From NCBI RefSeq assembly GCF_018449545.1, contig NZ_JAAVUR010000006.1:62001-126000 (forward strand): a stretch of 64,000 nucleotides of DNA, in the 5' to 3' direction. The translations under genes were made by a program, and so were the position numbers. Shown here piece by piece: positions 7,369 through 9,739 of the stretch (position 1 is its first letter; every line of letters begins with the position of its first letter). The notes beneath the pieces are model-generated. The model was not told the DNA's origin. It made no database searches and worked only from the letters and a program-made list of their open reading frames with translations. The stretch is from Granulicella sp. dw_53 (lineage in GTDB: Bacteria > Acidobacteriota > Terriglobia > Terriglobales > Acidobacteriaceae).

Positions 7369-7400
7369 CTCGGCGAAGCGAGGAATCGCCCTACCTTGCC
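7369..7400. repeat. Left copy of an imperfect direct repeat bounding the RM island
   Basis: This 32-base segment matches 9708-9739 at 26 of 32 positions. Its core CTCGGCGAAGCGAGGAA can form a short hairpin. The right copy covers the last bases and stop codon of mnmE, so the pair may be attachment-site-like repeats left by insertion at the mnmE 3' end. Confidence 0.45.
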
Positions 7401-7488: not shown

Positions 7489-8637
7489 TCAGAGCATCGT
7501 TGCGACAGATTCTGCAATCGCCCGACCGAGCAGTGGCGGTACAGCATTGCCTATCTGCTTTACTACCTGTGTACGATTCCCCGAAAAAAAGAAAGTGTCA
7601 TCGAAAGACTGTAATCTCGCTCCTTCACGAGGTGTCAGAGCTCGATCTTGAATCGGATGAATGCAGCGATTGGAAGCAGGATGGACGAAATTCACTGTAA
7701 TCGTCACGGCTGGTTCATCTCCATCAAGACGCGAATAGCAGGAGCTAAAACCACTCGAAATTAGATGGGACGGAATCGAGCTGATGTTCTTCCCAGAATG
7801 ACGGATTATTTCTAACATCTTGGGTGTGTGAGCCGTCGCGGAATGAAGACTGACCTGAGCCGATCTGCCCCGTCGACTAAGTTGATAGCCGTTTTGGACA
7901 TCGCGGTATCCCACAGCTGATTCTCCCGCCGCTATGGCAGGCAGATCCGAAATGGCCTCTAGCACAGAGACCGCCTTCTCTAGTGCGGCAGCTTTGGCAT
8001 TAAACAGATTCGGTTGCATAGGGGAGTGTAGACGAGATCGATCCTTGTGCCCGATCGTTGCCCCGCAAGATGAGTGCGTAGGGTTAGGAAACCTGATTTT
8101 TATTCCCTTTTGCGCGCCGATCATTATCAAGCGCTCTCGCTTCTGCGGAACACCATAGTGCGCTGCATTCAAGATGCGCCACTCCGTCTCATATCCTAGA
8201 GAGCGAAAACAAGCTTCCATGCTCTCTACGGTGTTACCGGATCGATGTGTCGCCAAGCCCACGACGTTTTCAAGAACAAAGACGGTCGGTCTGAAGTAAT
8301 TGACGAACGAAGCGTATTCTTCAAAGAGGCTGTTTCTCGGATCATCTTCGATAGAAGATCTGAAGGGCCGAATTGAAGAAAATCCTTGGCATGGAGGGCC
8401 ACCCAAAATCACATCTATTTGCCCCTTCTTAAGCTTCAGCTTCTCCGAAACTTCAATTCGCCTCAATCTGCGTATATCGCCCGTCAGCATAAGAGCATCG
8501 GGATGGTTGGCCTGAAACGTCTTTCCAGCAACGGGGAGTACATCGACACCTAAACATGTTTTGAATCCAAGTGCCGCTGATTCAAAGCCATAAGAAAACC
8601 CTCCGGTCCCGCAAAAAAGATCAAGAACGTTATACAT
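7489..8637 (-). CDS. C5-cytosine DNA methyltransferase of a type II restriction-modification system
   Basis: The 382-residue enzyme transfers a methyl group from S-adenosylmethionine to carbon 5 of cytosine in its recognition site. All ordered motifs are visible: motif I DLFCGTGGF (6-14), motif IV GGPPCQGFS (79-87) with catalytic Cys83, motif VI ENV (123-125), motif VIII QKRERL (165-170), a target-recognition region (about 190-325), motif IX RALTPREGARLQSF (332-345) and motif X QIGNAVPPLLG (361-371). The ATG is preceded by AGGAG at good spacing. The gene is divergent from an HTH-nuclease gene across about 100 bases that hold a perfect palindrome. GC content is lower than in flanking chromosomal genes, consistent with horizontal acquisition. 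The methylated sequence cannot be predicted from the protein. Confidence 0.95.
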   Translation of the reverse strand: MYNVLDLFCGTGGFSYGFESAALGFKTCLGVDVLPVAGKTFQANHPDALMLTGDIRRLRRIEVSEKLKLKKGQIDVILGGPPCQGFSSIRPFRSSIEDDPRNSLFEEYASFVNYFRPTVFVLENVVGLATHRSGNTVESMEACFRSLGYETEWRILNAAHYGVPQKRERLIMIGAQKGIKIRFPNPTHSSCGATIGHKDRSRLHSPMQPNLFNAKAAALEKAVSVLEAISDLPAIAAGESAVGYRDVQNGYQLSRRGRSAQVSLHSATAHTPKMLEIIRHSGKNISSIPSHLISSGFSSCYSRLDGDEPAVTITVNFVHPASNRCIHPIQDRALTPREGARLQSFDDTFFFSGNRTQVVKQIGNAVPPLLGRAIAESVATML

Positions 8638-8676
8638 ACCATCTCCTAAGCTAAGCGAATTTTAGCACCGCCGGTG

Positions 8677-8690
8677 GAGACTATAGTCTC
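8677..8690. promoter_or_regulatory. C-box-like operator between the divergent RM genes
   Basis: GAGACTATAGTCTC is a perfect 14-base palindrome in the middle of the divergent intergenic region. It closely resembles the GACT-spacer-AGTC boxes bound by controller (C) proteins of type II systems such as PvuII and AhdI. The adjacent HTH domain is the obvious candidate to bind it. Confidence 0.7.
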
Positions 8691-8737
8691 GTATCTTTCG
8701 GTGTGCTCTTTCTTCTAGCATTAGTCACAGATCTCAA

Positions 8738-9637
8738 ATGGACGAGCCCAGACACCCAATTGTTGATGTACTATTGCGTTTGTTGCGGACTCTCAGGGTT
8801 AAGCAGGGATTGACTCTCGAGGAAGTTGCAGATCGAGCTGGTATCCATAGAACACATCTTGGCCTGATCGAACGAATGGAGCGTCAACCCACGCTGAGCG
8901 TCGCCGTGCAAATCGCCAAATCGTTCGACTTGGATCTCTCGGACTTACTTCTAAAAGCAGAGCTGATACAAACCGGGAAGCTCCGGGAAGAAGAAGCTTT
9001 TAGAGACCTTTTCGTTCGGATTGAAAAGCCCGAATGTCTTCGGAATCTCGAACTCCTGGAGCTGCATACAGGTCTTTCGGGCGCGATGCTCTTGAAAGCA
9101 ATTCATGGCTGTTACACCATGCTGGATACCATCGACTCAGAGCTAGTCGCAAACGGATCTCCTCCAATTGGGGGGCTAGTAGAACTCGCGAACCTATCTT
9201 CTATGGTCGGCAATATGGTGGGTGGAGCGATTGCGGAAACTTCTGAAGGCCTGTATGCACGAAACAAACCGCATCATTATCCAGATCTCCTACCACTACG
9301 TGATCCTGCCAAAAACCTTGAGTTGAAGATGGCTTTAGAAACAAACAAGCCCAAGGGTCACCTACCGAAAGCGGGGACTTACATTACCATCCGCTATGTT
9401 CTGGGCGATAGAGCCGGTACCTACGCAAGAAAGACCCGAGGCAATACCGTATGGATTTGGGAGGTGAAGGTCGGCTTGATCAATATTGGGGACTTCGATA
9501 TAAGCAACACTGAAGGCGACTCAGGGAAAACGGCGGTTATAAAAACCACTGTGTTCAATGCAATGCCTCTGGTCTATTTTGATCCGTCATTTTGTCCGTA
9601 CGATGCAAGACGAGGAAGCTATCCGGGATTAAATTAG
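8738..9637 (+). CDS. HTH (XRE/controller-like) domain fused to a PD-(D/E)xK nuclease: probable type II restriction endonuclease
   Basis: Residues about 9-75 form an XRE/C-protein-type helix-turn-helix (VKQGLTLEEVADRAGIHRTH, then LIERMERQPTLS). The remaining 220 residues resemble no family I can name, but contain PD (182-183) followed 11 residues later by ELK (195-197), the spacing of a PD-(D/E)xK catalytic motif, and then beta-rich sequence (TYITIRYVL, TVWIWEVKVG). Together with the divergent C5 methyltransferase this is best read as the cognate restriction endonuclease carrying its own controller domain, so one polypeptide could both cut and regulate through the palindrome at 8677-8690. Specificity is unknown. 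A regulator that merely accompanies a lost nuclease is the alternative. Composition is low-GC like its partner. Confidence 0.75.
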   Translation: MDEPRHPIVDVLLRLLRTLRVKQGLTLEEVADRAGIHRTHLGLIERMERQPTLSVAVQIAKSFDLDLSDLLLKAELIQTGKLREEEAFRDLFVRIEKPECLRNLELLELHTGLSGAMLLKAIHGCYTMLDTIDSELVANGSPPIGGLVELANLSSMVGNMVGGAIAETSEGLYARNKPHHYPDLLPLRDPAKNLELKMALETNKPKGHLPKAGTYITIRYVLGDRAGTYARKTRGNTVWIWEVKVGLINIGDFDISNTEGDSGKTAVIKTTVFNAMPLVYFDPSFCPYDARRGSYPGLN

Positions 9638-9707: not shown

Positions 9708-9739
9708 CTCGGCAAAGCGAGGAACCGCTCTTACTTTCC
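9708..9739. repeat. Right copy of the island-bounding direct repeat, overlapping the mnmE stop
   Basis: This copy matches 7369-7400 at 26 of 32 positions. Its right end includes the mnmE stop codon and the Gly-Lys codons of the conserved CIGK terminus. The mnmE (trmE/thdF) 3' end is the known attachment site of Salmonella genomic island 1 and relatives, whose attB likewise covers the codons for FCIGK and stop. Confidence 0.45.

Follow-up and report, generated by a model that had tools for sequence, protein, structure and literature searches.

A predicted nuclease fused to a controller-like domain, with a probable single operator, in a likely restriction-modification cassette of Granulicella sp. 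dw_53

Introduction

Can a restriction enzyme carry its own transcriptional controller within the same polypeptide, and if it does, where on the DNA would that controller act? The question is raised by one gene in a 64,000-nucleotide stretch of Granulicella sp. dw_53 (contig NZ_JAAVUR010000006.1, positions 62,001 to 126,000), which we call the window. The gene encodes a helix-turn-helix (HTH) domain resembling the controller (C) proteins of restriction-modification (RM) systems, followed by a predicted PD-(D/E)xK restriction endonuclease (REase), and it is divergent from a C5 cytosine DNA methyltransferase gene. A first-pass annotation made from the sequence alone had proposed a restriction enzyme with a built-in C protein, and had remarked that the controller is usually a separate small gene. 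The remark agrees with the literature, yet fusions among PvuII orthologues were published in 2013 (PMC3850674). Having followed up this proposal, we find it quite likely that the cassette is a type II RM system in which the 299-residue protein is a nuclease that also serves as its own controller, acting through a single operator.

Results

Domain layout and predicted nuclease

The controller-like HTH and the nuclease share one continuous reading frame in the window. The layout given by the first-pass annotation proved accurate: its N-terminal XRE-type domain is matched by Pfam HTH_3 at residues 16-70 (E 6.5e-13, above the gathering score), the PD at 182-183 and the ELK at 195-197 stand at exactly those positions, and the divergent gene, whose start codon is separated by 100 bp from that of the fusion gene, matches PF00145.

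Relatives of the nuclease were found at 15 genome loci, on one plasmid, on two viral contigs and in one phage, and L031 and the truncated-nuclease copies L037 and L038 were added later (L numbers denote loci). PD and E-[LI]-K are present in all 17 nuclease rows of a first alignment, which holds the window and 16 homologues (in L014 and L015 the frame is damaged beyond the motif), and again in every one of the 16 rows of a second alignment (A4), in which two viral-contig homologues were taken in and L014, L015 and L024 were left out. Because the motif is kept in every row although identity to the window drops to 41%, its conservation goes beyond chance. E149, in the helix that precedes the motif, is invariant as well. 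In the secondary structure of the model, D183 lies just before strand 184-186 while E195 and K197 fall within strand 194-200, and these residues and strands, together with the fold matches, place PD...(D/E)xK on the predicted beta hairpin of the common core.

The list of matches that VIA gave for the whole protein was filled by HTH domains, and therefore the nuclease domain was folded and searched alone. The AlphaFold (AF2) model of this domain has a predicted local distance difference test score (pLDDT) of 90 and a predicted TM-score (pTM) of 0.88. Foldseek matched it to EcoRV at E 5e-4, the sole match below 0.001, and to NaeI at 1.4e-3. In VIA the top match is NaeI (Z 10.3 over 152 residues, 3.5 A), followed by SwaI (7.3), DpnI (7.2), NhoI (7.1), EcoRV (6.1), HincII (5.7) and PvuII (5.1), and matches with Z of 5-7 also include SfiI, NlaIV, BglI, MutH and an Hjc resolvase. 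NaeI, SwaI, DpnI, EcoRV and the other structural matches share the PD-(D/E)xK fold. The best structural matches of the modeled C-terminal domain are PD-(D/E)xK restriction enzymes, as the first-pass annotation had foreseen when it suggested predicting the fold. It had also said that it would give up the nuclease if the domain matched a non-nuclease family or if all homologues had lost PD/ExK; no such match occurred, and none of the aligned homologues has lost the motif.

Orthology to PvuII was considered and is not claimed. A profile search (profile A2) of PDB sequences returned no PvuII at E<=10 and only an ankyrin protein at E 0.64, PvuII being a weak fold match only.

The pairing of a nuclease gene with a DNA methyltransferase gene, by which a type II RM system is recognized, is present in the window. 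It is also common among the relatives, where a homologous methyltransferase adjoins the nuclease at 14 of the 15 genome loci; at the remaining one, L015, the contig stops 175 bases past the match.

Controller-like domain

The HTH resembles known C proteins in both sequence and predicted fold. A phmmer search against PDB sequences gave C.BclI as its best match (5.4e-6), with a quorum-sensing regulator close behind (1.1e-5), and the PADLOC models named Control_protein match it at 3.2e-8 and 7.9e-8. With the whole protein, VIA aligned chains of C.Esp1396I at Z 11-12 (top 12.3) over about 76 residues. In some cyanobacterial relatives a separate C-like HTH gene lies directly upstream of the same nuclease. 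This arrangement, the C.BclI match and the operator-like site described next lend support at the sequence level to the built-in C protein of the first-pass annotation.

Proposed operator and promoters

The space between the two divergent genes holds a 20-bp site, GGTGGAGACTATAGTCTCGT, which is probably, judging by its conservation, the operator of the fusion protein. Thirteen loci, the window included, share the divergent arrangement. The site is exact in seven of them (the window, L005, L007, L008, L009, L010 and L024), is kept at 16-18 of 20 positions in L001-L004 and L025, and at 14 of 20 in L006, which makes at least 16 of 20 in 12 of the 13 loci. When the window cassette is compared with L005, L008, L009, L010 and L024, this site is each time the longest stretch of exact DNA identity; in the comparison with L007 it comes second. 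When 13 loci are aligned on the operator, a set that leaves out L006 and adds L037 although L037 had been found by means of the operator itself, 14 of the 20 operator positions are invariant as against none of 100 flanking positions. The site resembles the half-sites of C-boxes, GACT...AGTC. The exact 14-bp palindrome within it occurs once in the window's own genome, as does a copy with a single mismatch.

The site also stands at a fixed distance from what may be the promoter of the fusion gene. A TAnnnT begins 22-24 bases after the operator in 12 of 13 loci, other non-overlapping offsets give at most three loci, and the best value in 500 shuffles was seven. If the -10 proposed on this basis is right, the leader of the fusion gene would be about 10 nt long; the gene has no visible Shine-Dalgarno sequence.

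Two relatives that have the nuclease with no HTH, L011 and L026, show no operator in the 600 nt upstream of the nuclease, the best scores being 11 and 12 of 20, which is the level of shuffled sequence. The loci of the second, convergent arrangement that do have a C part carry tandem C-boxes instead, of the form ACTTATAGTC-CGTR-GACTTATAGTC, in five of five cases, all cyanobacterial.

Two further readings of the intergenic DNA were set aside. A GTCAA about 12 nt after the operator, found in 9 of 13 loci at each of four positions, might be a half-site and is not claimed as one. A terminator role for the palindrome was dropped, the palindrome being upstream of both genes.

The first 18 bases of the operator were also used as a probe on viral contigs, where three stretches were found, L036, L037 and L038. 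L037:1424-3102 and L038:1442-3120, alike where compared, have the methyltransferase, the operator and the HTH intact, and an unrelated tail replaces the nuclease after about 65 residues. L036:5790-5807 is a solitary exact copy of the 18 bases, upstream of what by eye looks like a type I hsdM gene; this locus has no relatives of either the methyltransferase or the nuclease, and the copy would be a relic or a borrowed operator. The operator can thus be used as a DNA probe, as it led to a cassette with a broken nuclease.

Table 1. Positions of the features of the cassette within the window
Feature	Position	Strand	Basis or remark
C5 cytosine DNA methyltransferase, 382 aa	7489..8637	-	PF00145 E 2.7e-66; TIGR00675
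Candidate -10 TAAAAT of the methyltransferase gene (weak)	8659..8664	-	17-bp spacer would put the -35 inside the operator
Proposed operator GGTGGAGACTATAGTCTCGT, 20 bp, with a perfect 14-bp palindrome at 8677-8690	8673..8692	.	Conservation between the divergent genes
Candidate -10 TAGCAT of the fusion gene, from the 24th base after the operator end	8716..8721	+	TAnnnT at 22-24 in 12/13 loci
C-REase fusion gene	8738..9637	+	299 aa, ATG start, frame open through to the stop
XRE/HTH_3 controller-like domain, residues 16-70	8783..8947	+	Pfam, phmmer, VIA
Linker of ~20-25 residues (roughly 81-102) between HTH and nuclease	8978..9043	+	Alignment with relatives having a separate or shorter C part; secondary structure of the model
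PD-(D/E)xK nuclease domain, residues 103-299	9044..9634	+	AF2 fold matches, conservation
Codon of E149, possible fourth catalytic residue	9182..9184	+	Invariant in alignments, helix preceding the motif
Active-site motif P182-D183 ... E195-L196-K197	9281..9328	+	P, D, E and K invariant in alignments

Cassette types and the fusion junction

The relatives fall into two types. In the divergent type (L001-L010, L024, L025 and the window) the methyltransferase (M) and the nuclease (R) genes point away from each other, and R carries the fused HTH in every locus except L006, where the part coding for the HTH is missing. In the convergent type (L011-L014, L026, L031, and L015 on account of its C part) the M gene runs toward R, and M has an N-terminal HTH of its own, SsoII/EcoRII-like, as judged by eye and for L011 by a Pfam test. 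Since the methyltransferase of this type has such a domain, HTH domains can sit on both partners. The C part of the convergent type is fused in L012 and L031, a small separate gene upstream of R in L013, L014 and L015, and absent in L011 and L026. Counted over the 15 genome loci, it is fused in 10, separate in three and absent from two.

The divergent and the convergent type are separated in the R tree as well as in the M tree (support 98/98 and 100/99), with a long-branch warning for L011, L025 and L026. Within the convergent type, the M tree makes the fused L031 a sister of the separate L014 (96/89). The R tree, for which L014 was unusable, groups the fused rows L012 and L031 (95/83), and by this tree a single change would suffice.

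In L014 and L015, both of which have damaged nuclease frames, the C frame ends GAG TAA TG and the ATG of the nuclease overlaps the stop codon by one base, and in L013 the C and R frames overlap by four bases. L031 reads GAA GTA ATG at the same place and its frame runs through, while L012 reads GGG GTA ATG. The separate L014 and L015 and the fused L031 thus differ by one base at the TAATG junction. As four of the five junction loci are metagenome assemblies, a base error is possible in any one of the five. The divergent type has the linker in place of the TAATG junction, and the window linker contains no methionine. In a distant cyanobacterial relative of the nuclease (L033:1224-2220), a separate 81-aa C-like gene overlaps the nuclease gene by 56 nt if the longest open reading frame (ORF) is taken, and by 20 nt if the count starts at the first ATG.

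Some of the surroundings of these relatives were also noted. ORFs that adjoin the cassettes at L025:5576-5854 and L026:4329-4829 resemble Vsr mismatch endonucleases by eye. In a Streptococcus suis phage (L027:3932-6617) a frame-broken relative of the nuclease has as neighbours a nuclease and a methylase that the record labels R.SnaBI and SinI, respectively. The Peribacillus plasmid pSHB26 (L065:3383-7445) has two nucleases related to this R.SnaBI-labelled one. Of the two C5 methyltransferases from which they are divergent, one shares 58% identity with that of the window.

Origin of the cassette

The cassette was probably acquired. Among 61 genomes, the window's own included, only the own genome has the nuclease, and the other matches cover residues 5-105, on the HTH side. 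In a sample of the phylum, 2 of 297 genomes match, these being the own genome and a distant relative. The nearest homologues are from Pandoraea and Pseudomonas, at 71% each, and one relative was found on a mobilizable Psychrobacter plasmid of 10 kb, with the methyltransferase adjoining the nuclease. Beside the cassette, the mnmE stop codon at 9731 is the exact point where DNA homology with the relative genome G021 sets in. It is this rarity, the nearest homologues, the plasmid relative and the G021 boundary that make acquisition probable.

A 32-nt direct repeat of 81% identity (7369-7400 and 9708-9739) brackets the cassette, its right copy overlapping the 3' end of mnmE. Integration at mnmE was rejected as an explanation: there is no second copy of the mnmE end in the window, and the repeat, which may be a common genome hairpin, was not counted.

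Discussion

Taken together, these results suggest how the cassette could work. The C5 methyltransferase would protect host DNA against a nuclease that presumably shares its specificity, with cleavage catalyzed by D183, E195 and K197, probably together with E149. A dimer of the fusion protein would bind the symmetric operator between the divergent genes by its N-terminal HTH. Bound there, it would have the likely transcription start of its own gene about 45 bp downstream, a spacing at which activators such as lambda CI work, and would be expected to activate that gene. The same dimer would cover the likely methyltransferase promoter with its -35 and could thus repress it. In a new host the methyltransferase would then be made first and the fusion protein would build up slowly by positive feedback, after which the methyltransferase would be held down. 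If this model is true, changing GAGACTATAGTCTC would abolish both the rise on the R side and the fall on the M side.

There are several points that weigh against this picture, and looking at them shows where it could fail. Some are associated with the two domains. The best PADLOC model for the HTH is not a controller model but HTH_VI (2e-12). In VIA, Stl (12.4) and ClgR-like chains equal C.Esp1396I, and the first Foldseek matches of the HTH are ClgR-like proteins and DdrO. Fold alone thus cannot single out C proteins, because these repressors match as closely. On the nuclease side, the C-terminal 200 or so residues have no match among Pfam, NCBIfam and PADLOC models, and for this reason the assignment rests on residue conservation, predicted fold and gene neighbourhood. 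The TM-scores of the Foldseek matches are only 0.3-0.5, and in VIA a Z of 8 is reached by 3 of 996 chains, all NaeI, so that matches at lower Z may reflect common arrangements. Other points are associated with the operator. With L001-L004, L006 and L025 there are longer exact matches than this site, which in the case of L001, L002, L004, L006 and L025 does not rank among the longest, while the palindrome is altered at 1-3 bases in L001-L004 and L025. The way in which L037 entered the operator alignment, from which L006 is missing, is a further weakness. The two tandem C-boxes upstream of a controlled promoter that are classical for C proteins are not seen in the window. In the 13 divergent loci a search for a second C-box found no core above 5-7 of 10, at shifting places, although a degenerate one is possible. 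A sigma-70 scan of 8560-8800 returned no sites, the -35 is poor, and the -10 on the M side is at no fixed place across the loci. The scan also flagged the palindrome as a terminator-like stem of five pairs, where 0.1 would be expected in shuffled sequence.

Given these points, other explanations of the fused HTH have to be weighed. It could serve the nuclease as a further domain for DNA recognition or as an effector domain, with no role in transcription, in the manner of type IIE enzymes such as NaeI, whose extra domain binds DNA. That NaeI is the best fold match of the nuclease domain, and that HTH and nuclease are in one chain, would fit this. However, the same nuclease exists with no HTH in L011 and L026, as judged by eye, and with a separate HTH gene in L013-L015, and the operator-like site is conserved between the genes and missing upstream of L011 and L026, so we consider the explanation unlikely. 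The same two loci bear on the idea that the methyltransferase controls the promoters through the conserved site, this being a target of methylation or cleavage, and that the HTH has some different role. They keep M and R, and have neither the HTH nor the site, and the boxes differ in relatives whose C part is of another kind. The resemblance of the site to C-box half-sites also speaks against a methylation target. Although promoters controlled by methylation have been described in other RM systems (PMC12707154), we find this idea very unlikely.

It could also be that the protein now only regulates the methyltransferase and that its nuclease domain is catalytically dead. Decay does occur among the relatives, since L006 has lost the HTH part, L014, L015 and L027 have broken nuclease frames, and L037 and L038 retain M and HTH with no nuclease. 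In the window, however, the frame is open and the catalytic residues are those that are invariant in the intact aligned relatives, and we would give a dead nuclease hardly any credence. A nuclease that is its own controller therefore remains our preferred explanation of the cassette.

A bolder version would see the fusion protein as a one-molecule switch, which acts either as a controller, when an HTH dimer sits on the operator, or as a cutting enzyme, when the nuclease dimerizes. This would replace the two C-boxes and the separate C gene in delaying restriction, and in the cyanobacterial relatives fusion and separation would be toggled by the single base at TAATG. We regard this version as rather doubtful. 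Competitive dimerization has been proposed earlier for other C-REase fusions (PMC3850674).

The family is a natural series in which the controller is separate, fused or lost around one conserved nuclease, and this allows testing the effect of fusion on the timing of restriction. The operator-like site, for its part, has been kept to the base between the window genome and several gammaproteobacteria.

Comparison with known systems

C.Esp1396I, C.BclI and C.AhdI are the natural references for the controller domain, which is like C.Esp1396I in fold and like C.BclI in sequence at the values given above. They differ from it in being small separate proteins with two dimer sites per operator (PMC6237814), whereas the window has one clear site and a fused nuclease. 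In Kpn2I the methyltransferase promoter overlaps divergent promoters and has its -35 blocked by the controller (PMC6237814), and this is close to what we propose here. The Kpn2I and EcoRV circuits differ in having separate controller proteins, and the Kpn2I site lies inside the C gene (PMC6237814).

For the nuclease, the nearest family model is REase_II PDLC03564 of PADLOC, which was matched weakly by the relatives L013 (7.2e-5) and L026 (1.6e-4) and not by the window protein. Its members and the window relatives both keep a PD...E-x-K pattern, and it is its Streptococcus phage member that is labelled R.SnaBI in the record and adjoins the broken relative of the window nuclease. A difference is that the neighbouring methyltransferases are of another C5 type (27% identity).

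The closest known arrangement is that of the C-REase fusions of PvuII orthologues characterized in 2013 by Liang and Blumenthal, in which both C and REase activities were demonstrated for CR.NsoJS138I and an overlap of the C and R genes was named as easing fusion (PMC3850674). A 2025 review mentions C-REase fusions as well (PMC12707154). In the literature we searched, which had REBASE outside its scope, PMC3850674 was the sole title on such fusions, and what seems to be new against this literature is a second nuclease family, one partnered by a C5 methyltransferase, together with the single shared operator and the one-base difference at the junction. It suggests that controller-REase fusion is a recurrent solution, reached here by nucleases for which no relation to PvuII was detected in sequence. 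As described in PMC3850674, the CR.NsoJS138I group has, like the window, an N-terminal controller HTH and a C-terminal nuclease in one polypeptide, its family has fused, separate and C-less members as ours does, and the linker of the cyanobacterial fusions, at about 25 aa, is close to that of the window. It differs in that the profile search of PDB sequences related the window nuclease to no R.PvuII sequence, that the partner in the window is a C5 methyltransferase with one clear operator between divergent genes, and that 10 of the 15 genome loci found for the window family have the fusion.
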